DNA of 49,036 nucleotides from Sphingomonadales bacterium (lineage in GTDB: Bacteria; Pseudomonadota; Alphaproteobacteria; Sphingomonadales; Sphingomonadaceae), in assembly GCA_020200315.1 (NCBI GenBank), contig JAIVIZ010000095.1, positions 1 through 49,036 on the forward strand, written 5' to 3'. The position numbers and the translations under genes were made by a program. Within the stretch, counting starts at the first letter, position 1. Every line of letters begins with the position of its first letter. Below the pieces are notes generated by a model. That model searched no databases. It was not told where the DNA came from and saw only the letters and a list, made by a program, of their open reading frames with translations. Of the stretch, positions 1,787-49,036 are shown in pieces.

Positions 1787-3534
1787 GCGCGCCGCGGCAG
1801 CTCGAACCATTTCCCAACCTCGTCACCATGTTCTTCGCGCGCGCCGAGGAGAAAGGCGATGCGCCCTTCCTCTGGGCCAAGCGCGGCGACATCTGGGCTG
1901 CGACGAGTTGGCGCGAGGCCGCCCACCAGGTCGCCGCGCTCGCCGAGAGCCTCAAGCGCCTCGGCCTCAAGCCCGGCGAGCGCGTCATGCTGGTGAGCGA
2001 GAACCGGCCCGAATGGCTGATCTCCGACCTCGGCATCATGGCGGCAGGGTGCGTCACCGTGCCGGCTTACACCACCAACACCGTGCGCGATCACCAGCAC
2101 GTGCTTGGCAACAGCGGCGCGCGCGCCGTCATCGTTTCGACTCAAAAGCTGGCCAAGACGCTCATTCCGGCGGTGCTGTTCGCGTCGGAATGCCACCACA
2201 TCATTTCGCTCGAGCCCCTGTCCATCCAGCAGTCGCCCGACGTCGCGCAGTTCCACCTCTGGTCGGATCTGGTCGCTGGTAACGGTGACCTAGAAGCAGC
2301 GAGAGCAGCGTCCAGCGGCGTCGGTCGTGGCGATCTCGCCTGCCTGATCTACACCAGCGGGACCGGTGGCGCGCCGCGCGGCGTCCGCCAGCACCATGGC
2401 GCGATCCTCCACAACGTCGAGGGCTGCATCGACGTCATCTCGACCGATTTCGGGTGGGGAGACGAAGTGTTCCTGTCCTTCCTCCCGGCCAGCCACGCCT
2501 ATGAACATTCCGGCGGGCAGCATTTCCCGATCGCGCTCGGCGGCCAGATTTTCTACGCCGAGAGCCTCGAAAAGCTCGCCGCAAACATCGAGGAAGTGCA
2601 GCCGACGATCATGGTCGTCGTGCCCCGTCTGTTCGAATTGCTCCGTGCGCGCATCCTCAAAACGATTGAAAAGGACGGCGGGCTGCCAGCCTATCTGCTC
2701 GGCCGCGCGCTAGCGATCGAAGCGCGGCGCACGGCGGGCAAGATGCGCCTCGTCGATGCGCCGATGGACCGGCTGCTCGATCTCACCCTTCGGCGAAAAG
2801 TTCAGCGCAAGTTCGGCGGCAGGATGAAGGCGATGGTCTCGGGCGGCGCACCACTGAACCCCGATGTCGGCCTGTTCTTCCAGGCGACCGGCCTGCCCCT
2901 CCTCCAAGGCTATGGCCAGACCGAGGCCGGGCCGGTGATCAGCTGCAACCGGCCCTCAGCAGGGATTGCAATGGAGACGGTCGGCCCGCCCCTCAAGAAC
3001 ACCGAAGTGCGCATCGCCGCCGATGGCGAAATCATGGTGCGCGGCGAGAATGTCATGCATGGCTACTGGCGCAATCCCGAGGAGACGGCGCGCGTACTGG
3101 CGGACGGCTGGCTCGCCACGGGCGATGTCGGGCATCTCGACGCCGCCGGTCGGATCGTTATCACCGATCGCAAGAAGGATCTCATCGTCAACGACAAGGG
3201 CGACAATGTCGCGCCCCAGCGGGTCGAGGGCATGCTGACGCTGCAGCCCGAGGTCGCGCAGGCGATGGTCTACGGCGACCGCCGCCCCCATCTTGTCGCG
3301 CTGCTCGTCCCCGAAGCCGAATTCGGTGACGAGCCGAATCTTCAGCAGCGGCTGGGAAAGGCGGTCGACCGCGTGAACGCCGAACTGAGCGTGATCGAGA
3401 GAGTCCGCCGTTTCATCGTCGCCGAGGCGCCGTTCAGCGTCGACAACGAGCAACTCACTCCCTCGCTCAAAATCCGCCGGCACGTCATCGCCAAGGTTTA
3501 TGGCGAGCGGCTCGACGCGCTCTACAAACGCTAG
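1783..3534 (+). CDS. AMP-dependent acyl-CoA synthetase (long-chain fatty acid CoA ligase type)
   Basis: 583 residues from ATG 1783, which overlaps the ggt stop (ATGA). The protein activates a carboxylic acid, probably a fatty acid, to acyl-AMP and then acyl-CoA. Seen motifs of the ANL superfamily are the phosphate loop YTSGTGGAPRG near residue 190 (Gly for the usual second Thr and Arg for Lys), GYGQTEAGP near 376, ATGDVGHLD near 445 and DRKKDLI near 462. The length fits the FadD15/FACL group. Exact substrate cannot be read from sequence. Its TAG stop lies in a CTAG shared with the convergent gene downstream. Confidence 0.88.
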   Translation: MSAPRQLEPFPNLVTMFFARAEEKGDAPFLWAKRGDIWAATSWREAAHQVAALAESLKRLGLKPGERVMLVSENRPEWLISDLGIMAAGCVTVPAYTTNTVRDHQHVLGNSGARAVIVSTQKLAKTLIPAVLFASECHHIISLEPLSIQQSPDVAQFHLWSDLVAGNGDLEAARAASSGVGRGDLACLIYTSGTGGAPRGVRQHHGAILHNVEGCIDVISTDFGWGDEVFLSFLPASHAYEHSGGQHFPIALGGQIFYAESLEKLAANIEEVQPTIMVVVPRLFELLRARILKTIEKDGGLPAYLLGRALAIEARRTAGKMRLVDAPMDRLLDLTLRRKVQRKFGGRMKAMVSGGAPLNPDVGLFFQATGLPLLQGYGQTEAGPVISCNRPSAGIAMETVGPPLKNTEVRIAADGEIMVRGENVMHGYWRNPEETARVLADGWLATGDVGHLDAAGRIVITDRKKDLIVNDKGDNVAPQRVEGMLTLQPEVAQAMVYGDRRPHLVALLVPEAEFGDEPNLQQRLGKAVDRVNAELSVIERVRRFIVAEAPFSVDNEQLTPSLKIRRHVIAKVYGERLDALYKR

Positions 3535-3947
3535 CCGCGCGGTTTCACGTAGGGAATGAACTCGCTCATCGAGCAACTGCCGACGGTAAAGCCGACGGGC
3601 AGATCGACGACTTGCGAAATGTCGCCGCGGCACAGCTGCCCGCTGCCGTAGAGGTGCGTAACCAGCGTGTAATGCCCGGAACCAATCGGCGCGCAGCCGC
3701 CCCGCGGCGACTGGACATAGACACGGTTGGCGCCGTCATGGAACAGAATGGTGTTGTCATCGACCACTTCCATGTCGGCCGAACGATAAGTCGGCAGGCA
3801 GTCGACCGGCGCCTGTGCGACCTTGCCGGCGAGGGCGCGGCGGAGCTGGTCTTCCTGCCGCGCGGAACGCTGGATGGGCTGGGTGACACTGGCGGAGCAG
3901 GCGGCGAGGCCGCCGACGGCGAGTATGATGAAAGATAAGCGGCGCAT
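3531..3947 (-). CDS. small lipoprotein, DUF6491-like
   Basis: 138 residues from ATG 3947; a second in-frame ATG four codons upstream (3959) is also possible. The N-terminus MRRLSFIILAVGGLAAC is a lipoprotein signal with lipobox LAAC. The mature part has paired cysteines (DCLP, GGCAP, QLCRGD, GSCSM) and the pattern DCLPTYRSADMEV...TILFHDG...YV, which I associate with the DUF6491 family of sphingomonads and xanthomonads. That assignment is from memory. It is probably periplasmic; function unknown. Its stop shares CTAG 3531-3534 with the acyl-CoA synthetase. Confidence 0.7.
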   Translation of the reverse strand: MRRLSFIILAVGGLAACSASVTQPIQRSARQEDQLRRALAGKVAQAPVDCLPTYRSADMEVVDDNTILFHDGANRVYVQSPRGGCAPIGSGHYTLVTHLYGSGQLCRGDISQVVDLPVGFTVGSCSMSEFIPYVKPRG

Positions 3948-4012
3948 ATTCGACTCCATGACTCAGCTCGAGCGGAGCATCAACGCATGACGCGCCGGTT
4001 TCGATGAGCCAG

Positions 4013-4744
4013 TCATGAACGAAAATTGTCTTTTGCCGCGCGCCGCTCGGTGAAGGTTGCAATGTCCGGGGCGGTCACGAACGGATTGGTGGCGCGCTCC
4101 AAACCAATAGTGGTCGGCACGGTAGGTTCATTGCGGGTGCGCGCCGCCTCGACCTCGACCAGCCGATCCGCGATGGCGCGGTTGCCCTGTTCGGCATGCG
4201 CTGCAAAGCGCGCGTTCGCCAGCGTGTATTCATGAGCGCAGTAGACGAGGGTCTCGGACGGCAACTCGGCGAGGCGCTTCAAGGACGCGAACATCTGCGC
4301 CGGACTGCCCTCGAACAAGCGGCCGCAGCCCATTGCGAACAACGTGTCGCCAACGAACGCCACTCCGGCCTCGCGGAACACGAAGGCGATGTGGCCGAGC
4401 GTATGGCCCGGCACTTCCCAGACTTCGCCGACATGATCGCCGATGTGCACTTTGTCGCCCTCGTTGAGGTGGACGTCTATTCCCGGGATCCGCGCCGCTT
4501 CGGCTGCCGGACCAGAAATCCGTGCGCCTCGGTCCCGCACCGCGAGATTTCCACCGGTGTGGTCGGGGTGCCAGTGAGTGTTGAGCACCTGCCCGATGCG
4601 CCAGCCGCGACGATCCGCCTCCGCCAGCACAGCTGTGGAATCTCCTGGATCGATCGCCGCCGTCTCGCCGCTTGCCGGATTGCGGACCAGCCACAGGTAA
4701 TTGTCAGCGAACGCCGGAACCGCGACGATGTCGAGCGCCGTCAT
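4013..4744 (-). CDS. gloB: hydroxyacylglutathione hydrolase (glyoxalase II)
   Basis: 243 residues from ATG 4744. The open frame continues upstream over gloA, but this start gives the normal glyoxalase II N-terminus (MTALDIVAVPAFADNYLWLV). It is a metallo-beta-lactamase-fold enzyme that hydrolyses S-lactoylglutathione to lactate and glutathione in methylglyoxal detoxification. The metal motif THWHPDH has His57, His59, Asp61 and His62; the later ligands lie in GHTLGH, VGDTLF and AHEYT. The C-terminal NPF and RAAKDNFR match the substrate-binding tail. The start overlaps the gloA stop by ATGA, so both steps of the pathway are one operon. Confidence 0.93.
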   Translation of the reverse strand: MTALDIVAVPAFADNYLWLVRNPASGETAAIDPGDSTAVLAEADRRGWRIGQVLNTHWHPDHTGGNLAVRDRGARISGPAAEAARIPGIDVHLNEGDKVHIGDHVGEVWEVPGHTLGHIAFVFREAGVAFVGDTLFAMGCGRLFEGSPAQMFASLKRLAELPSETLVYCAHEYTLANARFAAHAEQGNRAIADRLVEVEAARTRNEPTVPTTIGLERATNPFVTAPDIATFTERRAAKDNFRS

Positions 4745-5157
4745 CACCAGCTGCCCGTGTTCGGCATCGAGCGCCACGGCTCCGCGGGCTCCAGCCTGCC
4801 TTCCTGAAGCAGCTCGATCGAGATTCCGTCCGGTGTCCGCACGAACGCCATGCGCCCGTCCCGCGGCGGCCGGTTGATCGTCACGCCCGCTTCCATCAAC
4901 CTCCGGCACGTCGCGTAGATATCGTCGACCTGGAAGGCGAGGTGGCCGAAACTGCGGCCAGTGTCATAGCCGGTTTCTTCCCAATTGTGTGTCAACTCGA
5001 CCTCGCCGCCGTCATCTCCTGGAACGCCGAGGAAGATCAGCGTGTATTTGCCCTCCGGCACATCGACGCGGCGGCGCTCTTCCAGTCCGAGCAGTCTGAA
5101 GAAATCGATCGTCGCCTGTGGGTCCGACACTCGCAGCATCGTGTGAAGAAATTTCAT
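4744..5157 (-). CDS. gloA: lactoylglutathione lyase (glyoxalase I)
   Basis: 137 residues from ATG 5157. The enzyme isomerises the methylglyoxal-glutathione hemithioacetal to S-lactoylglutathione. It aligns end to end with the short E. coli-type GloA: MKFLHTMLRV supplies His5, VELTHNW Glu54, GHLAF His72 and ISIELLQ Glu115, the four expected metal ligands. The size suggests the Ni/Co-dependent bacterial class. It is followed directly by gloB (ATGA overlap) and preceded by the TPR gene with a 14-base gap. Confidence 0.93.
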   Translation of the reverse strand: MKFLHTMLRVSDPQATIDFFRLLGLEERRRVDVPEGKYTLIFLGVPGDDGGEVELTHNWEETGYDTGRSFGHLAFQVDDIYATCRRLMEAGVTINRPPRDGRMAFVRTPDGISIELLQEGRLEPAEPWRSMPNTGSW

Positions 5158-5171
5158 GGCGCGCCCTCGCG

Positions 5172-5774
5172 TCAGGGTTTGCCAGCGGACTGGACCGTGA
5201 TCGGCGTTCCCGCAAGGGCCAGCGCTGCGCGTGCGGCCTGACCGGTTCGGCCGGCGGGATCGAGTGCGACGACCCTGTTCCACGCGGCACGCGCCGCCGC
5301 CTCTTCGCCGCCAAGCTGGGCAACATGACCCGATTCGAAGAGGATCGTCGGGTCTTGCGGGGCCAGCGCAAGCGCGCGGGCGATGGCGATCTTGGCTCGG
5401 GGAACGTCGCTGCGCGCGACGGCGACCACGGTGCGGAAATACCAGACGAAGGGGTCCTGCGGGACTAGCCGCGCCGCCTCCGCGGAGCGCGCGTCAGCCA
5501 TCGCGAGGTCGCCAGCAGCCTGCGCGGCACGGGCGCGGTCAAGCAGCACTTCACCGCGATCGCGGTTCGACAGACTCTGCGTCGCCAGTGAACGATCGAA
5601 ATCAGCCGCTGCCGCTGCGGTATCACCATGTTCGAGGCGCAGGTTGCCCGCCGTAGCCCACAGCCCCCCGGCCCGCGCGTCCTCGGCGCGCTGTGCCTGG
5701 GCCTCGACCTCGGCAGCGCCGGGCGGCGTCGGCGCGCCCGCGGGTGCGAGAGCAAGGAGCAAAGCAAAGATCAT
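5172..5774 (-). CDS. exported TPR-like protein
   Basis: 200 residues from ATG 5774 (a TTG two codons upstream is less likely). The N-terminus MIFALLLALAPAGAPTPPGA is a short signal peptide. The rest is an alanine-rich array of helix pairs with TPR spacing, for example DTAAAAADFDRSL, GDLAMADARSAEAARL and AIARALALAPQDPTILFESG. Probably a periplasmic scaffold; no enzymatic motif. The start codon overlaps the stop of a truncated alpha/beta hydrolase by ATGA (5771-5774), showing the two were once coupled. Confidence 0.8.
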   Translation of the reverse strand: MIFALLLALAPAGAPTPPGAAEVEAQAQRAEDARAGGLWATAGNLRLEHGDTAAAAADFDRSLATQSLSNRDRGEVLLDRARAAQAAGDLAMADARSAEAARLVPQDPFVWYFRTVVAVARSDVPRAKIAIARALALAPQDPTILFESGHVAQLGGEEAAARAAWNRVVALDPAGRTGQAARAALALAGTPITVQSAGKP

Positions 5775-5932
5775 CGGCAATTCTCCACGAACGGCACGAG
5801 CAGGCGCAGCAGCGCGTCGATCTCGTGCGGCTCGGACAAGCGGTGGCCGCCTCCCTTGACCAGCAGCAGCTGGACATCCGATGAACGCAGCCGAGAGAAC
5901 AGATGGAGCGCAACCGCCAGCGGCGACGGTTG
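5771..5932 (-). pseudogene. alpha/beta hydrolase, C-terminal stump
   Basis: The last ~50 codons before the TGA at 5771-5773 read LHLFSRLRSSDVQLLLVKGG then GHRLSEPHEIDALLRLL. This is the typical end of a bacterial serine alpha/beta hydrolase, including the catalytic-His motif G-HRLS. Upstream of about 5932 the frame loses resemblance to the family and meets a TAA at 6014-6016. The nucleophile elbow and the rest of the fold are missing, and I do not see them elsewhere in the window. The stump keeps its ATGA coupling to the TPR gene, so the 5' part was probably lost by deletion. Confidence 0.7.
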
Positions 5933-6022
5933 AGCAGTCACTGACAGCCGCGATCTCGCGATTGCCATGCTTTCAGCGTTGAGCTTCCGTGGATTTACCG
6001 TCGAGTAACTAACTTATGACAG

Positions 6023-6298
6023 ATGCGGTTCATGCGAGCGCCTGGACACATCAAGCGAGCACCAAGAGTCTCTACCTGGCATAGAGCGACGCTGGTCGCC
6101 TCTGATGGTCGTGAGATCCCGTGCGTCGTCACCGACCTGTCGAGCGGCGGGTTCAAGCTCAAGGCGGACAGGACGATCCTGATCGGCGAATCCATCCGCC
6201 TGCGCGTCGATCGCTACGGCGACTTTCCGGCCCAAATCAAATGGGCGATCGCGGGCGAGGCCGGCGGCGAGTTCCTTACCCCCGTCGATCTGGACTGA
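6023..6298 (+). CDS. PilZ domain protein (putative c-di-GMP receptor)
   Basis: 91 residues from ATG 6023. A single PilZ domain fills the protein. The second signature DLSSGGFKL (D/N-x-S-x-x-G) is clear near residue 38, and the basic segment [12 protein letters not shown] upstream is in the place of the RxxxR motif, but is imperfect. Such small PilZ proteins bind cyclic di-GMP and commonly tune motility or polysaccharide synthesis. No partner is adjacent: the gene stands between the hydrolase stump and etfA on the other strand. Confidence 0.8.
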
Positions 6299-8502: not shown

Positions 8503-9702
8503 TCAGGCCGCCCTCTTCACTTCCGCCACGATCTTCCGCGCTGCGTCGCCAAGATCGTTGGCAGCGACGATCGGCAGGCCGGAATGCGCCAATATTTCTT
8601 TGCCCTGCTCGACGTTGGTGCCTTCGAGCCGAACGACGAGTGGGACCGACAGGTTCACTTCCTTGGCCGCCGTGACGATGCCGTCGGCGATGATGTCGCA
8701 CTTCATGATGCCACCGAAGATGTTGACGAGGATGCCCTTCACGGCGGGGTCGGACAGGATGATCTTGAACGCCGCCGTGACCTTCTCCTTCGAGGCGCCG
8801 CCGCCGACGTCGAGGAAGTTGGCCGGGAAAGCGCCATTCAATTTGATGATGTCCATCGTCGCCATGGCGAGGCCCGCACCGTTGACCATGCAGCCGATGT
8901 CGCCGTCGAGCTTGATATAGGCGAGGTCGTGTTTCGACGCCTCGATCTCCATCGGCTCTTCTTCGCTGAGGTCGCGCAGTTCGGCGAGATCCTGGTGGCG
9001 GAACATGGCGTTCGAATCGAAGCCGACCTTGGCGTCGAGCACCATCAGCTGGCCGTCTTCGGTGACGGCGAGCGGGTTGATCTCGATCTGCGCGGCGTCG
9101 GTGCCGAGGAAGGCGTCGTAGAGCTTCGACGCGGTGCTAGCCGCCTGCTTGGCGAGGTCGCCGGTGAGACCGAGCGCCGCAGCAACGGCGCGGCCGTGGT
9201 GCGGCATGAAACCCGTCGCCGGGTCGATCGTGACGGTGTGGATCTTCTCCGGCGCGTCATGGGCCACCGTTTCGATGTCCATGCCGCCTTCGGTCGAAGC
9301 GACCAGCGCGATGCGACCGGAATCGCGGTCGACGAGCAGCGCGAGGTAGAACTCCTTCGCGATGTCGACGCCATCGGTGATATAGAGCCGCTGGACCTGC
9401 TTGCCCTCGGGACCGGTCTGGATCGTCACCAGCGTCTTGCCGAGCATCTCTTCGGCGTTGGCGCGCACTTCCTCGATCGAGCGGGCGAGGCGAACGCCGC
9501 CTTTGGCATCCGACCCCAGTTCCTTGAACTTGCCCTTGCCGCGGCCGCCGGCGTGGATCTGCGCCTTCACCACCCACAACGGGCCGGGAAGCCGCTCCGC
9601 CGCCTCGACCGCCTGGTCGGCTGTCATCGCGGCATAGCCGGCGGGCACCGGCACGCCGAACCGGGCGAGCAATTCCTTCGCCTGATATTCGTGGATGTTC
9701 AT
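8503..9702 (-). CDS. sucC: succinyl-CoA synthetase (ADP-forming), beta subunit
   Basis: 399 residues from ATG 9702 ([20 protein letters not shown]), the standard family start; the longer open frame upstream adds nothing recognisable. SucC carries the ATP-grasp domain and nucleotide specificity of the TCA-cycle step succinyl-CoA to succinate. Seen are [59 protein letters not shown] and [11 protein letters not shown]. sucD is not in the window on either side, so here sucC is separated from its usual partner or sucD lies elsewhere. Confidence 0.96.
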
Positions 9703-26962: not shown

Positions 26963-27769
26963 TCATTCTTCGACCGGCGCTCCGTAGCCGCGGTTGTAAT
27001 AATCCTCGACGCCATAGCCTTCGCTCATCAGCCCCCCGCGATACTTGTTCAGGATAACGCCGGCCAATCGGTCGGCCCCGAGCAGTTCGGTTGCGTCGCG
27101 AACCTCGCGCTTGGTCGTTTTTCCTTCTTCCGCGACGACGATGTAAGCGTCGAGCCGCTGCAGGACGGTCGATGCGTCATCATTGGCGAAGACCGGCGGC
27201 AAATCGACAACGAACAGCCGGTTCTCGGCGCTCGTGCGCATCGCGCGGAACAGCGACTGTGCGCGCTGTCCGGCAAGCAGTTCGGCCGAGGCGACAAGCC
27301 CTGCTCGCGTCGGCAGGATAAGCAGCCGCTGGCCTTCGAAAGCGTAAGCGGGCGGGGTGCGCGCCTCTTCGGAGCCGCCAAGAAAGTCGAGCATACTGAG
27401 TTCGGGGTCGATGCCGCATTTACTGCTCGCCGACCCGCGCCTCAGATCGAGATCGACCAGTGTCGTCTCATAACGCGGGCTGCGGCTCAGTGCCGCCGCG
27501 ACATTGGCCGCGATATAGGATTTGCCGACCTGGCTAGTCGCGGAGACGATCCCGAACAGCCGCCAGCCCCGCTCGCGATGCAGGCTGGTGAGCCGCGCGC
27601 GAATGAGGTTGAAGCTGCGCGAGCGCGGATCGATACTATCGAAACCGAAAATGCCGAGCGCCTTCATTGCCGCATGGTCGATCGGCAGCAGCTGCGCCTG
27701 ATCGCGTGTCGGCAGGACCAGCGGGCTCGAACCCTCCGGCATCCTGTCCATCGATTCCGCGGCGCCCAT
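26963..27769 (-). CDS. EPS tyrosine autokinase (BY-kinase)
   Basis: 268 residues from ATG 27769, with AGGGG about eight bases upstream; a TTG 17 codons earlier overlaps the previous gene. Cytoplasmic P-loop kinase of the CpsD/CapB group. Walker A is SATSQVGKS (GKS 82-84), Walker A' TTLVDLDLRRGS, Walker B LFVVDLPPV. The tail EGYGVEDYYNRGYG has four to five clustered tyrosines, the autophosphorylation site. With the membrane Wzz-like partner encoded 13 bases upstream it would control chain length and export by cycles of phosphorylation. Confidence 0.87.
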   Translation of the reverse strand: MGAAESMDRMPEGSSPLVLPTRDQAQLLPIDHAAMKALGIFGFDSIDPRSRSFNLIRARLTSLHRERGWRLFGIVSATSQVGKSYIAANVAAALSRSPRYETTLVDLDLRRGSASSKCGIDPELSMLDFLGGSEEARTPPAYAFEGQRLLILPTRAGLVASAELLAGQRAQSLFRAMRTSAENRLFVVDLPPVFANDDASTVLQRLDAYIVVAEEGKTTKREVRDATELLGADRLAGVILNKYRGGLMSEGYGVEDYYNRGYGAPVEE

Positions 27770-27782
27770 CGATGTGCCCCTG

Positions 27783-29207
27783 TTAAGCAAAGCTTTCCTT
27801 CCGTCTAAAACCCCAGCCAAACCGGCGGCGCTCTTTTTTAACCGTCGTCAGCACCGGCACGACGCCGAGCACCGGCAGGCCCATGGCCTCGACCTGACTT
27901 GGGCTGCGCAGCGGCTGATTGAGCAATTCGAGCCCCAACGCGAGGAACAGGCCGAGCATCAGGCCCGCCGCCAGCCCGCCCACGATGAGCAGTGGACGAT
28001 TGGGCGAATGCGGATGGTCCGGCAGGTCCGGCGCGTCGACCAGCGACAGGCGCTCGGCACGCTGCTCGTTGGCCATTCTCTCGCTGTTCTGCGCTTTGAG
28101 AAGATTGGCCGAGACGTCCTTGTATTGATCGCGCAGCGTGCCCGCGCGGTTCTCCAGCTGCATCGCCTGCTCAAGAATCGCCGGCGCCCGCGCCGAGCCG
28201 GCACTCGATGCCGCCGCGCGGGAAAGCGCATCCTGTCGGCTTGACGACAGCTGGCCGATGGCGCGGTTGTTCGCCTCGACCTGCGCCCGAACGAGGGCAG
28301 CGTCATCCTGTCCGGGCTCGCTCCGCGCGATGGCGCGGGCCTGCTCGAGGCGCTGCTGAGCCTGGAGGACATCGGGGTGCGAGTCGGCATATTTCGCCTT
28401 GGCGGCAGCGAGCGCCGCTTCCGCTGCGGCAATCTCAGGATTTCGCGGCGTCCGGCCGGCACCGGCGAGCAGCTGACGATTCTGCGATTCGAGCCCCGCG
28501 ATCTGCGCGCTGTAAGTGCCGGTGTCGATGAAGGCCGGCCCCCCGGAACCGGCCAAAGCCGAGCCGTTGCGCGCCTTCAATTCCGTGATCTGTCCCTCGA
28601 TCGTGCCGACCTGCCCCTGAAGCTTGGTCGCCTGATCCTGAAGGAAGCGCACGGTCAGCCCCGCCTGCTGCTCGACTGCTTCATTGTCCATCCGCAGGAA
28701 GCTCGCGACATAGCTTTGCAGCACGGCTTGCGCCTTGACCGGGTCCGGGTAATCGAAGCTCATATTGATGGCGATGGTGTTGCTCTGCCCCCCCGAGGCT
28801 TGGCCGATGTCCCCCGCCAACGCGCCGACGGTGGTCGCCTGGCGCATCTTTTCGATAACCTTCGACAGCGGGTCTTTGCGGCGCTCGCTGGCATAGAGAT
28901 CATTCTGTTCGATCAGCGCGACGAGGTCGCCACGGCTCAGTACCCGTTCGCGAATCTTGGCGATGCGCTGCTCGATGACGCCGCTGCTCGGCGCATCGAC
29001 AATGCTGGTCGGCAAGTCCTGCGACTGCACCAGCAGGGTCGCCGACGACCGATACATGGTCGGCAGCAGATAGGCCGCGGCAAGCCCAGCCAGAAACAGC
29101 AGCAGCGTGGCGCCGATAATCCAGAGACGCCGCTGCCACAGAATTGCCGGCAGATGGTTGAAGAACCAGCCGCTACTGCCGCTACTCGACTCGATCGTCT
29201 GCTCCAT
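27783..29207 (-). CDS. polysaccharide chain-length determinant (Wzz/GumC-like)
   Basis: 474 residues from ATG 29207; a GTG directly before it (29210) is also possible, and either overlaps the barrel gene stop. Two membrane helices flank a long periplasmic part: LWIIGATLLLFLAGLAAAYL near residue 30 and LLIVGGLAAGLMLGLFLALG near 415. Between them are coiled coils (QDQATKLQGQVGTIEGQITE; YADSHPDVLQAQQRLEQARA). The PDLPDHPHSPNRP segment before the second helix is the usual Pro-rich motif. Co-polymerase regulating EPS length; activates the kinase. Confidence 0.88.
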   Translation of the reverse strand: MEQTIESSSGSSGWFFNHLPAILWQRRLWIIGATLLLFLAGLAAAYLLPTMYRSSATLLVQSQDLPTSIVDAPSSGVIEQRIAKIRERVLSRGDLVALIEQNDLYASERRKDPLSKVIEKMRQATTVGALAGDIGQASGGQSNTIAINMSFDYPDPVKAQAVLQSYVASFLRMDNEAVEQQAGLTVRFLQDQATKLQGQVGTIEGQITELKARNGSALAGSGGPAFIDTGTYSAQIAGLESQNRQLLAGAGRTPRNPEIAAAEAALAAAKAKYADSHPDVLQAQQRLEQARAIARSEPGQDDAALVRAQVEANNRAIGQLSSSRQDALSRAAASSAGSARAPAILEQAMQLENRAGTLRDQYKDVSANLLKAQNSERMANEQRAERLSLVDAPDLPDHPHSPNRPLLIVGGLAAGLMLGLFLALGLELLNQPLRSPSQVEAMGLPVLGVVPVLTTVKKERRRFGWGFRRKESFA

Positions 29208-35008: not shown

Positions 35009-35827
35009 TTATTTGCTTCCTGCCAACTGTGATTCGCCGTAGAGAATGGGGGGGCGATAATTTCCGAACCGGTCGAGCAGCACCAGCCAGAAAAACTCCA
35101 TTGTTCGCGCATAACGGCGCCAATAGCGTCGCGGCTCCGTCGCCATGCGATGGACCCACTCAAGGCCGTTTTGACGCATCCAGCGTGGGGCCCTCCGGAC
35201 CGCCCGCGCTTCGTAATCGATAGTCGCACCCACCCCCATATAGACCTTTACGTTTGGCATGAGATGCCGGTGCCTTACGATCCATATCTCCTGCTTGGGT
35301 GCGCCGAGCCCGAGGATCAGACAGGTTGCGTTGCTCTCGTTCACCATCCGAACGGCCTGGGCGGATTCTTCCGGATCACCGGCGAAATTCATGGATGGAC
35401 CGTGCGCGCCCACGACGATTTCGCGGCCAGCGATGCCGTTGATCCGCTGGAGTGCCCGGTCCGCTATCCCGGGTCGAGCGCCGAGCAGGAAGATGCGAAC
35501 TGCAGGATTCTGTAGATGCCGCCGCCAATAGGCTGGAACAATGTCTGATCCGGATGCCTTTGTCTGTATCCTGCGGCCGAGAAACTTCAATGCCCAGTAG
35601 ACGTACTTACTGTCGGAAGAGACGATTGTCGCCTGGTTATAGGCGTGCGCGAAAGCCGCGTTGCGCTGTAAATGATACAGGTGATCTGGGTTCAGCGTGA
35701 AAAGAACACCCTCGTCCAACCGATCTACGATCTGCTCGACGGTGAGGTCGTCCACCCACGCATTCAGTATGCGGCACTTCTTCCGAGCCTTGAACAACGT
35801 GGAGTCGACGGGCACCGTTTCGTTCAC
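35009..35827 (-). CDS. WecG/TagA/CpsF-family glycosyltransferase (GT26)
   Basis: 272 residues from GTG 35827, overlapping the upstream stop as GTGA. GT26 features: VLFTLNPDHLYHLQRNAAF, VSSDSKYVYWALKFLG, GSDIVPAYWRR, IFLLGARPGIADRAL, LILGLGAPKQEIWI and MGVGATIDYEARAVRRAP then RWMRQNGLEWVHRMATEPRR. It adds the second sugar (N-acetylmannosaminuronate in WecG, other sugars elsewhere) to a lipid-linked first sugar. It is on the opposite strand from the priming transferase and in the lower-GC insert. Confidence 0.9.
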   Translation of the reverse strand: MNETVPVDSTLFKARKKCRILNAWVDDLTVEQIVDRLDEGVLFTLNPDHLYHLQRNAAFAHAYNQATIVSSDSKYVYWALKFLGRRIQTKASGSDIVPAYWRRHLQNPAVRIFLLGARPGIADRALQRINGIAGREIVVGAHGPSMNFAGDPEESAQAVRMVNESNATCLILGLGAPKQEIWIVRHRHLMPNVKVYMGVGATIDYEARAVRRAPRWMRQNGLEWVHRMATEPRRYWRRYARTMEFFWLVLLDRFGNYRPPILYGESQLAGSK

Positions 35828-38067: not shown

Positions 38068-38255
38068 GTTGCCTCTTACAGCGTCAGCAACGCCGCAGAC
38101 GTGCTTTGTTGAATTCCTGCAAGCTGAGGTTCAGGTGTGAGACTGATTTGATCTGATAGTTAATGCAGCCGTTAAAGGCACAGTTAATTTCCTTAACCCG
38201 ATTGAAAGTGGGAACTCGGCAGAACCGCCCAGACAAGGGGTGGGGACATAACGAT

Positions 38256-39527
38256 ATGACTAGCGACAGCACTCTCGGTCTCAAGGGGATCATGATTCTT
38301 ATCGCGGCCGTTACGGTCGGCGTCGCCGGCACGCAAAGCGAGCCGGGCGGCCGATTCGACCGGCTGACGAGGATCGTTCGGAAGGCTCCATCCACAACGA
38401 CCACGACGACGCCGACCACGTTCGCGTCCGCGTCCACGTCGACGACAACCACGAACTCAACCACCACCAGCAGCAGCAACGGGGTCTACCCGGAGCTGAC
38501 GGCGGTCACGAGCAACTTCGACATCAATACCGATCTTGGGGGGAGCTGGGGGAACGGCGCGATCCCGGCTTCGAATGCGCCGGATAACGTCGGCGCTTTC
38601 CGCTTTATCTGCAGCGCGGGGCAGGTGCTCCGGGACGATCCAATCGTCTACCCGGGCCACGCCGGGGCCTCGCACCTCCACCAATTCTTCGGCAACATGA
38701 CGGCCAATGCCAACTCGACCTACGCGTCGCTCCGCAGCGCGGGCGGCAGCAGCTGCGAGGGCTTCGGCACGACCGCGCTCAACCGCTCCGCCTACTGGAT
38801 GCCTGCGATGCTCGACGGCAAGGGCAACGTCGTTCGCCCCGATTATGTGGCCATCTATTACAAGCGTCGGCCGATCAGCGATCCGAAATGCTCGCTCGCC
38901 AGCGGTTCCCAGGCAGAAGGCGACTGCCTGCCGCTACCCAACGGCCTGCGCTATATCGCCGGCTACGACATGGTCACCAACACGGCCAAGACCGGAAGCG
39001 CTTACTTCAACTGCGACGGCGCGACCGCTCAGTCAGCCCATTATGACACGCTTACCGAAGCGGCGGCGCATTGCCCGACCGCGCCCAATCCCGACGGAAG
39101 CCACAACCGCATCGGCGCGGTCATCAACATGCCGATGTGCTGGGACGGCAGGAACCTCGACAGCCCCAACCACCGCAGCCACATGGCCTATGGAAATTAT
39201 GACGGTGGCGATGGCGTATGGCGCTGCCCGCTGACGCACCCCAAGCTGCTGCCGGCCTTCACGATGGGCGTGTGGTACACGGTCGATGCCAATCTGGGCA
39301 CCTGGCACCTGGCGTCGGACGAAATGCATCCCGAGCTTGCGCCGGGTTCGACCTTCCATGCCGACTGGTTCGGCGCCTGGGACAACACCGTCGAAGCGAT
39401 GTGGATGGACGGCTGCATCAACCATCTGCTGAACTGCTCCGGCGGAGATCTCGGCAATGGCAAGCAGATCAAGAACGCCTGGGGCACGAGCTGGTTCGCC
39501 AGCCCCCGCCTCGTGCCGGTCCCCTGA
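38256..39527 (+). CDS. DUF1996 protein with Thr/Ser-rich linker
   Basis: 423 residues from ATG 38256 (GGGGTGGGGAC upstream). A signal or anchor (GIMILIAAVTVGVAG), then a linker near residues 45-80 made almost only of Thr, Ser and Asn, then the DUF1996 domain: AFRFICSAGQVLRDDPIVYP, ASHLHQFFGN, SAYWMPAMLDGKGN, YYKRR, INMPMCWDGRNLDSPNHRSH and HADWFGAWD. The His/Asp content resembles a metal or carbohydrate site; the domain is common in fungi and actinobacteria. Function unknown. Confidence 0.83.
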   Translation: MTSDSTLGLKGIMILIAAVTVGVAGTQSEPGGRFDRLTRIVRKAPSTTTTTTPTTFASASTSTTTTNSTTTSSSNGVYPELTAVTSNFDINTDLGGSWGNGAIPASNAPDNVGAFRFICSAGQVLRDDPIVYPGHAGASHLHQFFGNMTANANSTYASLRSAGGSSCEGFGTTALNRSAYWMPAMLDGKGNVVRPDYVAIYYKRRPISDPKCSLASGSQAEGDCLPLPNGLRYIAGYDMVTNTAKTGSAYFNCDGATAQSAHYDTLTEAAAHCPTAPNPDGSHNRIGAVINMPMCWDGRNLDSPNHRSHMAYGNYDGGDGVWRCPLTHPKLLPAFTMGVWYTVDANLGTWHLASDEMHPELAPGSTFHADWFGAWDNTVEAMWMDGCINHLLNCSGGDLGNGKQIKNAWGTSWFASPRLVPVP

Positions 39528-43093: not shown

Positions 43094-45178
43094 TCACCAG
43101 ATTTTCACGCGTTTGTCGGGCGCAAGATAGAGTTTGGTGGTCGCGGGGGCCTTGAACGCCGCATACCAGGGATCGAGATTGCGCACTGTCAACACGCGCC
43201 ACGGCCCCGGAGCGTGGACGTCGGTTGCGATCCGTGCGCGCAACGCGGCGTCGCGCAGCTTGCCGCGATGCGACTGGCCATAAGCGATGAAGAAGCGCTG
43301 GTCGCCGCTCATGCCGTCGATCACCGGCGCCGGCTTACCGTTCAGCGACGCGTGATAGGCGTCATAGGCGGCGGACAGCCCGGCGACATCGGCAATGTTC
43401 TCGCCCAGCTCCTGCTTGCCGTTGAGGTGCAGCCCGGGGAGCGCTTCATAGGCGCTGTACTGGTCGGCCAGCGCCTTCCCCGCTGCCTGGAAATGGGCGA
43501 GGTCTGCGGGCGTCCACCAGTTGCGCAGCCGCCCTTCGGCATCGAAGGTCGCGCCGAGATTGTCGAAGCTGTGGCTGATCTCGTGGCCGATCACCGATCC
43601 GATCGCGCCATAGTTGGCGGCCGGGTCCGCCGCCGCGTCATAAAACCCCTTGTCGAGGATCGCGGCCGGGAAGTTCAGCGCATTCTGCAGCGGCAGGTTG
43701 AGCGCGTTGACCGTCTGCGGGGTCATCCACCATTCGGTCTTGTCGACCGGTTGACCGATCTTGGCGATCTGCATTTCGTAATTGGCGCGGCGGGCGCGGT
43801 CGAGGTTGCCGTAGGCATCGCCGGCGCGGACGTTGAAATTGGCATAGTCGTGCCACTTGTCCGAGTAGCCGATCCCCACCGCCATGGTCGCGACCTTGCG
43901 CTTGGCCTCGGCCTTGGTCGGCGCGGCCATCCATGTCAGCCCGTCAATCTTCTTCTCGAACGCCGCTTTGATGCCGGTGACCATCCGCTCGATGTCGCTC
44001 TTGGATGAGGCCGGGAAAAATTTGTCGACGTAGCGCTTGCCCACAGCGTCCCCGAGCCAGCGACTGGTCGCCGCCAGCGCGCGCTTGTCGCGGGTGCGCT
44101 GCTGTGGCTGTCCGCTGAGCGTCGCTCCGTAGAAAGCAAAGTGCGCGTCGTCGAACGCATTGGGCAGCGCGTCGGTCATCTGGTTGGCGCGATGGAAGGC
44201 GAGCCAGTCGCGCCACACTTCGAACGGCTGCGACGCGACCAGCGCCGACAGCTTGGTGACTGTACCCGGCTGCCAGACGATGAAGTCCTGCTGCTGACCG
44301 AGCTTCGCCGCGCCAAGCAGCCGGTTCCAGTCCAGGCCCGGCGCCTTGCGGTCGAGATCGGCACGCTTCCACGGGTTGTTGCCCTTGACGCTGTCCTGGC
44401 TGTCGTTGATCGATTCCTGCGCCTCGGCGATCTGCCGTTCCAGCGCGACGACCTTCGCCGCCCGCGCGGCCGCGTCGGGAATGCCGGCGAGCGTCATCAT
44501 CTTCGCCACATAAGGACCGTAGGCGTCGCGGATCTTCACCATCGCCGGGTCGGACGACAGGTAATAGTCGCGGTCGGGCAGCCCGATGCCGCCCTGCATG
44601 AGGTAGGGAACGGTGGTCTTGGGATCGTTCAGCGACTGGGTAGTGAAAATGCCGAACAGATTCTCGCTGTTGTAATTATTGTTGTTGAACGGATCGGTGT
44701 CGGCCCGGATCGACCCCCCGATCGCCTCGGCCAGCGCGCCCTTGTCGGCGATCGCCTCGATCCGGTCGATGTCGGCCTTCAGCGCGGCCGCGCCCTTCTG
44801 CTCGATCGCGTTGGTGTCGAGATATGCGTTGTAGAAATTGGCGATCTTGGCCTCATCGCCGCTCGTCGGATTGGTCTTGGCGATTCCGGCGATGAGGTCG
44901 GCGGTACGCTTTTCGGCGATATCGTTGACCACCGAGAAGCTGGAGATGTTCGATTTGTCCGCGGGAATCTCGCTGTTCTTTTCCCAGCTGCCGTTGGTGT
45001 ATTTGTCGAAATCGTCACCCGGCGCGACGCTCTTGTCCATCGCGGCCACATCGATCCCCGACTGGCTGCCCTTGGCGGCGGTCGCTTCGGTTCCCCCCTT
45101 GTCGCTGCCCTGGCTGCATGCGGCCAGCGGAAGGAGGGCAATCGCCGAAGCGGCAAGAAAAATGGCGCGGCGGGTCAT
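43094..45178 (-). CDS. M13-family zinc metallopeptidase, lipoprotein
   Basis: 694 residues from ATG 45178. Lipoprotein signal (AASAIALLPLAAC), then the neprilysin-like N-domain (DFDKYTNGSWEKNSEIPADK). Catalytic core: SVIGHEISHSFDNLGATFDA with HExxH, the third zinc ligand in GENIADVAGLSAAYDAY, and the closing VRNLDPWYAAFKAP then KRVKIW with the C-terminal Trp of the family. Full length. Periplasmic oligopeptidase. Confidence 0.94.
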   Translation of the reverse strand: MTRRAIFLAASAIALLPLAACSQGSDKGGTEATAAKGSQSGIDVAAMDKSVAPGDDFDKYTNGSWEKNSEIPADKSNISSFSVVNDIAEKRTADLIAGIAKTNPTSGDEAKIANFYNAYLDTNAIEQKGAAALKADIDRIEAIADKGALAEAIGGSIRADTDPFNNNNYNSENLFGIFTTQSLNDPKTTVPYLMQGGIGLPDRDYYLSSDPAMVKIRDAYGPYVAKMMTLAGIPDAAARAAKVVALERQIAEAQESINDSQDSVKGNNPWKRADLDRKAPGLDWNRLLGAAKLGQQQDFIVWQPGTVTKLSALVASQPFEVWRDWLAFHRANQMTDALPNAFDDAHFAFYGATLSGQPQQRTRDKRALAATSRWLGDAVGKRYVDKFFPASSKSDIERMVTGIKAAFEKKIDGLTWMAAPTKAEAKRKVATMAVGIGYSDKWHDYANFNVRAGDAYGNLDRARRANYEMQIAKIGQPVDKTEWWMTPQTVNALNLPLQNALNFPAAILDKGFYDAAADPAANYGAIGSVIGHEISHSFDNLGATFDAEGRLRNWWTPADLAHFQAAGKALADQYSAYEALPGLHLNGKQELGENIADVAGLSAAYDAYHASLNGKPAPVIDGMSGDQRFFIAYGQSHRGKLRDAALRARIATDVHAPGPWRVLTVRNLDPWYAAFKAPATTKLYLAPDKRVKIW

Positions 45179-45334: not shown

Positions 45335-46390
45335 TCAACTCAGCAGTTCGAGCTTGTCGATCACGTTGATGTCGTCGGGCTCGATCTCGAACGCGCGCGA
45401 GGTGTTGAACGGCAGGCTGGGATGGCTCGACGTGACCAGCGACCATTGAGCAACGCCGCAGCCGAAGATGATCTGCCCGTCGGGCAGGCCCTGCGCCGTG
45501 AGCTGCGCACGAGTCATCGCCTCCAGCTCCGGCGGGCGGATCGAGAGATAGATGATGGTCTGCTGCAGCTCGGTCATTTTGAGCACCGCTTCAACCGCGC
45601 CCTCGTTGGCCTTCACGTCCGCGAAAGCCGGCGCGAAATGGCTCGATCCACGCTCGAACAGGAAACCGTCGATGCTGACCAGGAACACGCGCCGGGTCTC
45701 GAGCTTGTGGCGCCATTCGTGGACCGTTCCCCAGTCCTGATAATTGCGGACGCGTTTCGCCTGAAACGATTGCCCATTGAGAATCATGTGGCCGATGATT
45801 TCGGAAATATAGAGTTCGGCATCGTTGACCCGCCCCGCTCCGCTCAGTGCGTCGAACGTGTCGAGAAATTCCGTCGGGCTGCGGAAGAAATAGCCGCCGA
45901 CGCTGAACAGGTCGGAGATGACTCGCTTTTCACGAACGTTGGTGACGACGCTGTCCTGATCGATCTGGACATAGCTCTTGTTGCGCGCGTTGATCATGTC
46001 GAAGTCGTTCAGCGACGACACGCTGATATAGTTGAACGGCTCCTCGATCGCGTCGAGCTCGAAGAAATTGTCGCTGTCCTTGACGAGGAACGGCTCGTCG
46101 ACCTCAGTTTCGCGCAAGGTTCGCGCGACCGTTTCGGACTGGCTGCTGGTCGGCCGGTCGAGCACGACGCAGCGCACCGGCGCGCCGAACGCCCGCTCCA
46201 GCCCGGCAACGGCGTCGAACTGTGCATCCTGCTCGGCAAGCAGGGTGACGATCAGATCGTCCGGCGCCACGCCAAGCCCCTCGATCGCACGGACGACCAT
46301 CGGCACGCCGTCGTGATCGGGCAGCATCCACTTCGGCGCCATGTTGGGAAAGCGCGACGAGCGCCCGGCGCAGGGTACGATCACCTTCAT
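45335..46390 (-). CDS. sugar/choline-type nucleotidyltransferase fused to a degenerate HAD domain
   Basis: 351 residues from ATG 46390. N-terminal nucleotidyltransferase domain: MKVIVPCAGRSSRFP...PKWML (a variant of GxGxR...PK), VKDSDNFF with the metal Asp, and NDAELYISEIIGHMI. After about residue 230 a HAD-like domain starts: RRVFLVSIDGFLFERGSSHF, IIYLSIRPPELEAM. The first HAD Asp is Ser (VSIDG), so phosphatase activity is unlikely. Third gene of the HAD/kinase/nucleotidyltransferase operon; it would join a phosphorylated precursor to CMP, UMP or similar. Confidence 0.8.
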   Translation of the reverse strand: MKVIVPCAGRSSRFPNMAPKWMLPDHDGVPMVVRAIEGLGVAPDDLIVTLLAEQDAQFDAVAGLERAFGAPVRCVVLDRPTSSQSETVARTLRETEVDEPFLVKDSDNFFELDAIEEPFNYISVSSLNDFDMINARNKSYVQIDQDSVVTNVREKRVISDLFSVGGYFFRSPTEFLDTFDALSGAGRVNDAELYISEIIGHMILNGQSFQAKRVRNYQDWGTVHEWRHKLETRRVFLVSIDGFLFERGSSHFAPAFADVKANEGAVEAVLKMTELQQTIIYLSIRPPELEAMTRAQLTAQGLPDGQIIFGCGVAQWSLVTSSHPSLPFNTSRAFEIEPDDINVIDKLELLS

Positions 46391-46399
46391 AAGAATACC

Positions 46400-47311
46400 T
46401 CAAACATGCTGGAGGGCGGCCTCGCCATAGGCTTCGACTCGGGCGGTGACGAAGGCCTCATCGGCTTCCGAACGGACATAGGGCAAGATGCGCGCGAAGG
46501 TCAGCGCGAGCAGCAGATAATGGCGGGCGGGATAGTCGGGCGCAATCCGCGCCGCCGCAGCCAACCAGCGATTGCGCAGCCACCAGCTGACGCCGAGCGA
46601 AATCGGCTTGCCGCGATGACTGTGCCACCGTCCTTCGCAGTCCTGGAACAGCTTGGCCCAGTCGAACCAGTAATGATCGATCGGCGATTCGATCGGATCG
46701 ATCAGCCACAGCTCGCCGCGCGCGCTGACCAGAATATTTTCAAACGTGAGGTCGCCGTGGGTGACCGTCCGAACCGGCGCCTCCGCATAGCGCCCAAGCC
46801 GCTCCACGGCCGACCGGATTGGGGCGAGCAGATCGTCGAAGCGACCGGCGGTGCGCTCGGCAATCTCGGCCAGCTTGCGCTCGATCGGGACGAGGCTTGG
46901 CGTTGGCCCGCGATCGTCGAGCCGGGACTCCGCCAGCCGGGACATCAGCCGTTCGACCTGATCCGCGAAGCCGGCGAGTTCGTCGAATGGGGCGGTGGCG
47001 ATAAAAGCATTGGCATCGCGCGACGGCACGAACTCCATATCGAAGTAATAAAGCCCGTCGACCTCGCCCTCCCCCCGCACCTCCGGGACTTTGGCACAGT
47101 CGGAGAGCGCCCGTCGCAGCCACTCCTGCCGCGCCGCCTGGCGGCGAAGGACGGCGTTGGCCGCGGTGGTCGCGGCGGCCTTGCGCACGAACTGCGGACC
47201 GTTGCCGTCGCGCAGCAGCGCGATCGCCGCACCGGAGAAACCGGTCAGCGGCAGCACCCGCGCGAACGACGCGAACGCCGGATGGCTGATGTTGGGAGCA
47301 GTTGTGCTCAC
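46400..47311 (-). CDS. APH/choline-kinase-fold phosphotransferase
   Basis: 303 residues from GTG 47311, overlapping the HAD stop as GTGA. Kinase-like fold: the Brenner motif VTHGDLTFENILV gives the catalytic Asp and metal Asn, and LWLIDPIESPIDHYWFDWAK holds the second metal Asp. Between HAD and nucleotidyltransferase genes (9-base gap downstream), it would phosphorylate a small alcohol or sugar to be activated by the next enzyme. Resistance function is unlikely in this setting. Confidence 0.82.
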   Translation of the reverse strand: MSTTAPNISHPAFASFARVLPLTGFSGAAIALLRDGNGPQFVRKAAATTAANAVLRRQAARQEWLRRALSDCAKVPEVRGEGEVDGLYYFDMEFVPSRDANAFIATAPFDELAGFADQVERLMSRLAESRLDDRGPTPSLVPIERKLAEIAERTAGRFDDLLAPIRSAVERLGRYAEAPVRTVTHGDLTFENILVSARGELWLIDPIESPIDHYWFDWAKLFQDCEGRWHSHRGKPISLGVSWWLRNRWLAAAARIAPDYPARHYLLLALTFARILPYVRSEADEAFVTARVEAYGEAALQHV

Positions 47312-47907
47312 GGCGCCACGGCTTCGGCGCGGACATCGACCCGCGCCATGCCCGCGGCATCGGCGGCGGCGAGACCATCGTCGGTATCCTCGAACACCAG
47401 GCAGCGCGCCGGAGCGACACGGAGCAGCGCGGCGGCGCGGAGGAACGGGTCCGGGGCGGGCTTGCCGCGCTCGATCTCGTCCCCCGTGACGATCGCCTCG
47501 AACCAGCCGCTCCAGCCCATTCGCACGAGGATCGCGGTCACCCCCGAGCGATTGCCCGATGAGACCAGCGCGCACGGCTTACGGCCATGCCACCGCTCAA
47601 GCAGCCTGGCTGCAGACAAGGCGTGCGGCGGCGCGGCGGCGAGGATCGACTCGAAAACCTGCTTTTTGGCCTCGTGCAGGCGGACGATCGCTTCAGCCTC
47701 CCGCGGTGGAGCGCCGATCGCATCCAGCATCTTGGGAATCGCGGCGCGGGCCGGAGCGCCGATCACGTCCATGAATACCGCCTCGCTGAGGTTCAGCCCC
47801 TCACCCCGAAACACTTCGGCATAGGCGCGGTAATGGAGCGGCATGGTGTCGACCAGCGTCCCGTCCAGATCGAACAGCAATGCGCCCCATTCGTCGATTG
47901 CAATCAT
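47308..47907 (-). CDS. HAD-family hydrolase (beta-phosphoglucomutase-like)
   Basis: 199 residues from ATG 47907. HAD motifs complete: LLFDLDGTLVDTMPLH (Asp13, Asp15), LVSSGNRS, ERGKPAPDPFL and VFEDTDDGLAAADAAGM. The helical cap between motifs I and II puts it in the phosphoglycolate/beta-phosphoglucomutase subgroup, acting on a small phosphate ester. First gene of a three-gene operon with the kinase and nucleotidyltransferase. Confidence 0.87.
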   Translation of the reverse strand: MIAIDEWGALLFDLDGTLVDTMPLHYRAYAEVFRGEGLNLSEAVFMDVIGAPARAAIPKMLDAIGAPPREAEAIVRLHEAKKQVFESILAAAPPHALSAARLLERWHGRKPCALVSSGNRSGVTAILVRMGWSGWFEAIVTGDEIERGKPAPDPFLRAAALLRVAPARCLVFEDTDDGLAAADAAGMARVDVRAEAVAP

Positions 47908-48076
47908 CTTCGCCCGCCGCAGCCCTCATCGTCGTTTGGGCCTTAGCCCATTGCAGCGCCAAAAAGGACTTCCGATTCAGCGCCGTGCTAATGCGGGCCG
48001 GTTAAAAACGACTCACCCCACCTTGGTTCGATAGCCGATCGTCTGTTAGGCGAACGCCCATGCTGGACGGGGTGCG

Positions 48077-49036
48077 ATGATGGCAAGTGGCGTGGACAAC
48101 CTCGCCGGCGAAATCGGAGCGGCAAGGGCCGCGTCGGCTGATGGGGAGCACGACGCCGCTCTGCGCCAGGTGGCGACGCTGCTCGATCGGCACGGCGAGA
48201 GCGAAGCCCTGCTGTCGGCCGCGGCGGACGTCTGGGTGACCGCAGTCGAGGCCGGTGCGCCGCTTGATGCCTGGCCCGGCCGCGATCGCTTTCACGAGCG
48301 GCTGATTGCCCAGCGCGATTGCGAGGTCAGCCCGCCCATCCTTCATCACCGCATCGCCAGTCAGCGCAGCTCCGGCGTGCTCGGCCATTTCCAGCGCGCC
48401 GCGGACGCGCTGCAGCCCGTGCTTGCGCGCATGCTCGCCGCGGAGCGGGTCGAGAGCAACACGGTGCTGATGGCGCTGGTGCTTCGGTCCTGTCTGCCGG
48501 CCGAGCTTCAGCCGAGAATCGCCGCGCTCCATGCCCGACATTTCGCTTCTTTCCGCCACGACGATCTGGCGCTGCCCTACAGCGTGCTGTTCGACAGGCC
48601 GGCCTTCGCCGCCAACGTCGCCGATCTTGCCAACTGGCCCACCACGCACCGCGCGGAGGTCCTCGCCGGCAAGGTGCCGATCGGTCATTTGCTGATCCTC
48701 CTGTGGCTCCTGCCCGCCGCCTTTGACGATTTTCCCCCGCACTGGTGGTCCACGGCCGTCGCCCGGCGGCTCGATCGCGCTCCGCTGAACGATGACGAGG
48801 CGCAGTCCGCCCGCTTGCTGGCGATGCGTTTCGGCACGACGCAAGATCGCGAGCTGATTGATCGGTTGACCGACGAATCCGCCGAGTTCATCGCCGCGCT
48901 CCGCACGCTCGACCGAACTCGCGTCTGCAGCGACGAGCCGTCGCCCCTTGCCATGGCCGCCGGGCGCCGCCTTGATCAGCGCCCACGCCAGGCGCTCGCC
49001 GCCGCAACCTCGCTGCTAAGCGGCCAAATCCCCTTC
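48077..49036 (+). CDS. unrecognised protein, runs off the window
   Basis: An open frame from ATG 48077 (a second ATG follows at once) stays open for 320 codons to the last base. The start reads MMASGVDNLAGEIGAARAAS. The protein is alanine- and leucine-rich and helical, with segments such as LLDRHGESEALLSAAADVW, HHRIASQRSSGVLGHFQRAA and GHLLILLWLLPAAFDDFPPH. No signal peptide. The repeated helical pattern recalls DUF2336-like alphaproteobacterial proteins, but I cannot support that. Codon use fits a real gene. Confidence 0.65.
   Translation, partial: MMASGVDNLAGEIGAARAASADGEHDAALRQVATLLDRHGESEALLSAAADVWVTAVEAGAPLDAWPGRDRFHERLIAQRDCEVSPPILHHRIASQRSSGVLGHFQRAADALQPVLARMLAAERVESNTVLMALVLRSCLPAELQPRIAALHARHFASFRHDDLALPYSVLFDRPAFAANVADLANWPTTHRAEVLAGKVPIGHLLILLWLLPAAFDDFPPHWWSTAVARRLDRAPLNDDEAQSARLLAMRFGTTQDRELIDRLTDESAEFIAALRTLDRTRVCSDEPSPLAMAAGRRLDQRPRQALAAATSLLSGQIPF

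Follow-up and report, generated by a model that had tools for sequence, protein, structure and literature searches.

A phosphatase-kinase-nucleotidyltransferase operon of a Sphingomonadales bacterium as a probable form of a recurring glycan-activation module

Introduction

A contig of a Sphingomonadales bacterium (NCBI GenBank assembly GCA_020200315.1, JAIVIZ010000095.1, positions 1 to 49,036; the whole stretch of 49,036 nucleotides is termed here the window) carries an operon of three genes on its minus strand, encoding in order a HAD-superfamily phosphatase, an APH-fold kinase and a nucleotidyltransferase (NT). Judging from the sequences, this operon is probably one architecture (termed here “type B”) in which a recurrent glycan-activation module occurs. 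Its kinase, phosphatase and NT would act as a relay to supply a nucleoside diphosphate (NDP)-activated unit for a surface polysaccharide, and a protein with a C-terminal SGQLRG domain (termed SGQ) would attach this unit. Directly established are the fold families, the intact motifs, the gene order, the co-occurrence with SGQ, the existence of NT-SGQ fusions and the position of the module inside an extracellular polysaccharide (EPS) locus in one relative. Within capsule and EPS loci, phosphatase, kinase and NT genes are annotated just as “capsular biosynthesis protein” or “hypothetical”, and our full-text search of Creative Commons-licensed PMC papers recognized no description of this gene set as a pathway. 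The present comparison ties such annotated genes, via the fused NT-SGQ protein, to a candidate transferase family unmatched by Pfam and NCBIfam models, and the chemistry becomes testable with three small enzymes.

Organization and conservation of the operon

The first gene (47308..47907) encodes a beta-PGM/YqaB-like HAD phosphatase of 199 residues with intact catalytic motifs, which scores 92.1 bits against Pfam Hydrolase (cut-off 26.4) and 144.5 bits against NCBIfam TIGR02009, the beta-PGM/YqaB family, where it stays under the cut-off of 153.35. The GTG start of the kinase gene (46400..47311; 303 residues) overlaps the stop codon of the phosphatase gene by 4 bp, and a gap of 9 bp separates it from the NT gene (45335..46390; 351 residues), so that the tight coupling of three genes reported in the initial annotation is borne out. 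APH (PF01636; 39.2 bits, cut-off 23.2) is the sole family whose cut-off the kinase passes; Fructosamin_kin reaches 13.8 bits, under its cut-off of 22.4, and the kinase sequences gave no significant match in the PDB. These fold types also agree with the earlier proposal that the enzymes may make a phosphorylated compound and activate it with a nucleotide.

In a pattern scan using one genome per species, the NT had three relatives, 56-60% identical to it, in Sphingobium xanthum (L006), Sphingomonas hylomeconis (L007) and Neorhizobium galegae (L008). Together with a further locus, L042, and the window itself they make up the five type B loci. In each of the four sister loci the HAD, kinase and NT genes are adjacent and in the same order, with 39-62% protein identity to the window, and this order is thus found in all five loci holding a full-length match to the window NT, window included. 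Because of this recurrence, the arrangement of the trio is more than chance. The motifs of the kinase, the NT and the free HAD are kept across the five loci, apart from one kinase motif pattern that went unmatched in L042.

The trio is rare among close relatives. A kinase profile (E ≤ 1e-12) found the kinase in at least three of the 397 genomes of the window's family, namely the window's own, G157 (the L006 locus, by its coordinates) and G1267 (L042). An NT match occurred in at least one of 36 same-genus relatives (G013, 31% identity, of another type), and an order-wide search gave some NT match in at least 14 of 396 genomes, full-length only in the window's own and G157; these counts of kinase and NT are lower bounds, the G013 match not being recovered in the 396-genome search. 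The trio looks accessory within the genus.

The nucleotidyltransferase and its degenerate HAD domain

The NT domain occupies roughly residues 1-231 of its protein. Taken alone, the window NT stays under the Pfam cut-offs of both NTP_transf_3 (23.1 bits, cut-off 27) and LNS2 (24.5 bits, cut-off 27.7). A profile made from it and three orthologues, searched against solved proteins, matched 4evw, which is named nucleoside-diphosphate-sugar pyrophosphorylase (E = 4e-10), and the window NT is homologous to the 4evw-type NT of the capsule gene sets with EcbF/BcbF described below (“type A”). An AlphaFold model of the NT built on a 4-row alignment (mean predicted local distance difference test score, pLDDT, 47.5) was too poor for a fold search.

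The C-terminal 119 or so residues (about 233-351; 45338..45694) are homologous to the EcbF/BcbF-type HAD, termed here HADc. In every one of the five type B loci this fused domain has Ser or Ala (Ser in the window) in place of the nucleophile, the first Asp of the DxD motif, and it lacks the late GKPWCG...YVDDKA segment. Free HADc copies kept DxD in all 17 checked, a count made up of 12 copies plus those of L052, L059, L060, L061 and L062 (L046 had no HADc match and in L063 the profile recognized no HADc). All five loci with the nucleophile-less fused domain have an intact, different HAD as their first gene, adjoining the kinase. Given that the nucleophile is lost in every fused copy while another, intact HAD is present in the same loci, the simplest interpretation is that the pathway requires a phosphatase step, which a second HAD has taken over. 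In the NT tree, the type B proteins group in a separate clade (100/100) whose stem is long (5.23) and of unsure placement, so the direction of the change had to be deduced; the sphingomonad version apparently exchanged its phosphatase.

The divergent gene and the SGQLRG domain

According to the initial annotation no transferase is adjacent to the trio. This has to be revised, since a gene on the plus strand (48077..49036), divergent from the HAD gene and 169 bp away from it, encodes what appears to be the N-terminal half of a candidate transferase before it runs off the contig. Its helical 320 residues are homologous to the SGQ proteins of L006, L008 and L042 and align with their N-terminal half, at 29% identity to L006 (E 5.1e-15) and 37.6% to L042 (E 3.5e-41). 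In these three of the four complete sister loci, an SGQ protein of 609-642 residues is encoded in the same place, divergent from HAD. The SGQ domain itself comprises the last ~300 residues and is marked by SGQLRG, a tryptophan after a V/D-rich strand and RxRPD.

The earlier suggestion that the product could decorate the EPS or another surface polymer gained support from L042, where the module lies inside an EPS locus, with GT4 and Wzy-type genes to one side of it and genes for a sulfotransferase and an initiating sugar transferase to the other. Of the genes in that EPS locus, five have homologues at 19-39 kb of the window, with identities of 34-48% across the aligned part: the Wzy-type, GT4, initiating transferase and DUF1996 genes and the counterpart of 26963-27820, the last without a Pfam test. 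The window DUF1996 protein (38163-39527) shares 47.5% identity over 347 residues with its homologue in the L042 locus and is possibly EPS-linked.

Wider gene sets in Proteobacteria and phages

Related gene sets have been found well beyond the sphingomonads. In type A, a free EcbF/BcbF-type HAD of ~115-130 residues accompanies an NT and a kinase that in most cases also carries a degenerate NT-like domain (NTX). The HAD of L040, for example, scores 174 bits against TIGR01689, the EcbF-BcbF “capsule biosynthesis phosphatase” (cut-off 162). Type A ranges over Alpha-, Beta- and Gammaproteobacteria and phages, and was seen on plasmids of Phaeobacter inhibens, Variovorax, Caballeronia, Citrobacter and Escherichia coli as well as in genomes of the window's class and phylum. 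On the E. coli plasmid, four genes in the order SGQ-HADc-kinase-NT overlap or lie within 5 bp of each other; a Legionella sainthelensi plasmid has a type A set with an unfused kinase and two WavE-family genes alongside. Our survey of kinase-bearing records covered seven of eight for plasmids (a second E. coli record was left out) and three of 12 for phages. Wider kinase loci, genomes included, number 19 in all (L029, L030, L039-L041, L043, L045-L052, L059-L063). A phosphatase was recognized in 17 of these (L046 and L063 being the exceptions) and in all five type B loci.

Phages hold the type A set in parts or whole. The Synechococcus cyanophage S-SKS1 (L051) has nearly the whole module at 182-6222, with SGQ-like genes, a kinase, an EcbF-type HAD and a gene (3490-4917) that joins the NT to a DHBP synthase domain (PF00926, E 5.4e-65). 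The EcbF-type HAD of this phage carries the annotation “phosphoheptose isomerase”. In Enterococcus phage 9183 (L050; 5402-7377), whose host is Gram-positive, an EcbF-type HAD is accompanied by a kinase annotated in its N-terminal region as nucleotide-sugar pyrophosphorylase-like.

Type C, a third set (L028, L031, L032, L044), consists of a GDPD-like protein, a beta-PGM-like HAD and one to three recognized NT domains, with no kinase recognized in these four loci; “GDPD-like” is our reading of the sequence, and L028 and L031 go unmatched in Pfam. A SnoaL-like gene is present in L028 as well; among the genes listed for Campylobacter jejuni IA3902 is a “ketosteroid isomerase” of similar size (CJSA_1359).

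One tie between SGQ and the module is the fusion of NT and SGQ into one 803-residue protein in G668 and its close relative G1372. Across three genome searches the SGQ queries matched seven genomes besides the window's: G668 and G456 among 385 genomes of the class, G668, G811 and G1052 among 398 of the phylum, and these three plus G1372, G938 and G953 among 347 of the phylum. HADc, kinase and NT lie within 10 kb in six of the seven. Of these six, three had served as rows in the last profile and a fourth, G1372, nearly duplicates G668, so that the independent cases are G938 and G953; in the former the SGQ-like gene adjoins the NT and in the latter a weak, partial SGQ match lies ~3.8 kb from it. 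Among three plasmid matches of SGQ, two come with HADc, kinase and NT and one, from Tropicibacter (L028), with a HAD and NTs and no kinase. SGQ is also present in five of the 13 wider kinase loci that were found via the kinase or the NT (L029, L030, L047, L049, L051).

Proposed pathway and alternative explanations

In the relay that we propose, the APH-fold kinase would phosphorylate a small metabolite that already carries a phosphate, such as a sugar, ketose or polyol phosphate, the HAD phosphatase would take off the other phosphate, the kinase/phosphatase order being deduced, and the NT would join the remaining phosphate to a nucleotide, for which cytidine triphosphate (CTP) is a guess. The C-terminal SGQLRG domain of the divergent protein, expected past the contig end, would then transfer the unit to an extracellular polysaccharide.

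Several observations weigh against this proposal. The window protein stops before the SGQ domain, L007 has no SGQ gene within the 21 kb examined, and SGQ was not found, in the stretch examined, in eight of the 13 wider kinase loci mentioned above (L043, L045, L046, L048, L050, L052, L062, L063; in L063 neither NT nor HADc was recognized), several of which have WavE-family or other neighbors instead (L048, L062). In G456 (L064) an SGQ-like gene (8566-9486; 306 residues, E 4e-11) sits among housekeeping genes with no module part in 19.5 kb; because of this gene, the SGQ family is wider than the module. The trio is ~9.5 kb away from the nearest tested EPS-family gene of the window (WecG/TagA, 35009-35827), with unrelated genes in between. 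Finally, searches of Pfam, NCBIfam and (by sequence) the PDB yielded nothing significant for the SGQ domain, and an AlphaFold model of the L006 SGQ protein (three rows, mean pLDDT 53.4) is mostly below 50 in its C-terminal part, the helical N-terminus being usable. Because database matches are lacking and the model is poor, we only infer from the motifs that SGQ is a GT-A-like, and hence a candidate, transferase. A common family of SGQ and WavE is not claimed (hhalign probability 2.3%, E 0.021, 36 columns), and nor is the absence of WavE from the window's genome, since in that search no control genome gave a match.

Three other explanations have to be weighed against the relay. The initial annotation compared the operon to LicA-LicC, in which case the kinase would phosphorylate choline or ethanolamine and the NT would make the cytidine diphosphate derivative for surface decoration. 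The APH fold of the kinase agrees with this, as does the NT, which we take to be a member of a broad family that also includes LicC, and the kinase of the Legionella plasmid has a weak Choline_kinase match (17.8 bits, cut-off 29). The window kinase, however, passes the cut-off of APH only, and its genome (87% complete, in 202 contigs, so that a miss is possible) gave no match to LicD (PF04991) or Choline_kinase (PF01633), models that matched two and five of 14 control genomes, respectively. Since the phosphatase, which belongs to the set, recurs in every type B locus and in nearly all of the wider kinase loci, the relay fits better than a two-step choline route; the resemblance has turned out weak, and we regard this explanation as improbable. 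Still less credible is a chance neighborhood or a housekeeping salvage function, in which a HAD, a kinase and a nucleotide-sugar enzyme are co-transcribed without a joint pathway. HAD, kinase and NT superfamilies are all large and promiscuous, which favors such an explanation together with the sub-threshold Fructosamin_kin match of the kinase, but five loci, including one in Neorhizobium, keep the order, the NT is found fused to both SGQ and HADc, and the module occurs in capsule-locus contexts.

More serious, although we still hold it to be unlikely, is direct activation without a bisphosphate, where the NT would activate a phosphorylated C3-C6 polyol or ketose, and the kinase and the HAD make or recycle that compound. 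This is what the NT-DHBP synthase fusion of S-SKS1, beside kinase, HADc and SGQ genes, would suggest, and the cytidylyltransferases HS5.18 and CpgD, as described in the available parts of the respective papers, are precedents for it (PMC10918830; PMC12275187). Against it, type B operons consist of HAD, kinase and NT only, with no DHBP synthase gene inside, and the branch of the S-SKS1 NT in the NT tree is very long (2.96).

Beyond the relay in the window, we entertain as a tentative possibility, one that we would not yet favor, that these gene sets represent an undescribed and widespread pathway of kinase, phosphatase, NT and often an SGQ transferase of a family without a Pfam model, common to tailed phages and to the polysaccharide loci of Proteobacteria, which would make and attach a nucleotide-activated unit new to surface glycans. 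The product of DHBP synthase is a C4 ketose phosphate; if the pathway exists, the fusion in S-SKS1 would suggest that one branch at least makes a C4 or ketose-like unit.

Comparison with known systems

Like LicA-LicC-LicD, the window has a kinase of the APH/choline-kinase fold followed by an NT; unlike it, the window set has a phosphatase, whereas the Lic pathway is not known to include one, and the genome lacks the LicD and PF01633 matches noted above. A close likeness exists with the EcbF/BcbF capsule set (L029, L040, L047), which shares the HAD phosphatase, the APH-fold kinase and the NT, partly with SGQ, and lies in capsule or EPS loci in several cases. In that set, however, the EcbF/BcbF HAD is a separate protein with DxD intact, and most of the kinases carry the degenerate NT-like domain. 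In the window the EcbF-like HAD forms part of the NT protein and lacks the nucleophile, a beta-PGM-like HAD is present in addition, and the 303-residue kinase has no NTX match.

In heptose activation, through GmhA-HddA-GmhB-HddC and HldE-GmhB, a kinase, a HAD phosphatase and an NT act in turn on a sugar phosphate, much as in the proposed relay, and the window set has the same three kinds of enzyme. Membership in the heptose pathway fails because the window kinase matches APH and not GHMP or PfkB, and there is no isomerase gene in the operon.

As for published gene lists, the nearest set is CJSA_1353-1356 in a capsule insertion of C. jejuni IA3902 (HS1/8), likened here by size, order and label only; in the available part of that paper, the first three genes are listed as unknown (PMC7901785). 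HS5.18 of C. jejuni activates fructose 6-phosphate with CTP (PMC10918830), and CpgD of Caulobacter activates phosphoglycerate with CTP (PMC12275187). Both act on small phosphorylated non-nucleotide compounds for envelope molecules, as proposed for the window NT, a likeness in described role, and the accessible portions of these two papers describe no kinase-HAD pair with either enzyme, unlike the window.

Other features of the window

The 169-bp divergent intergenic region (47908..48076) presumably holds both promoters; a promoter and terminator scan, uninformative overall, found no sigma-70 consensus match in it. On the plus strand an open frame of 800 codons (45422-47824) runs antisense to most of the trio. 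It was rejected as a gene, and since the longest antisense frames of four relatives reach just 173-362 residues, none comparably long, it most likely results from GC-rich codon use. A recent foreign origin was likewise rejected on base composition, the GC fraction of the trio being 0.650 vs. 0.646 for the window, although the trio is rare. Between the trio and the EPS region lies a gene for an M13-family metallopeptidase (43094-45178), unrelated to the trio.
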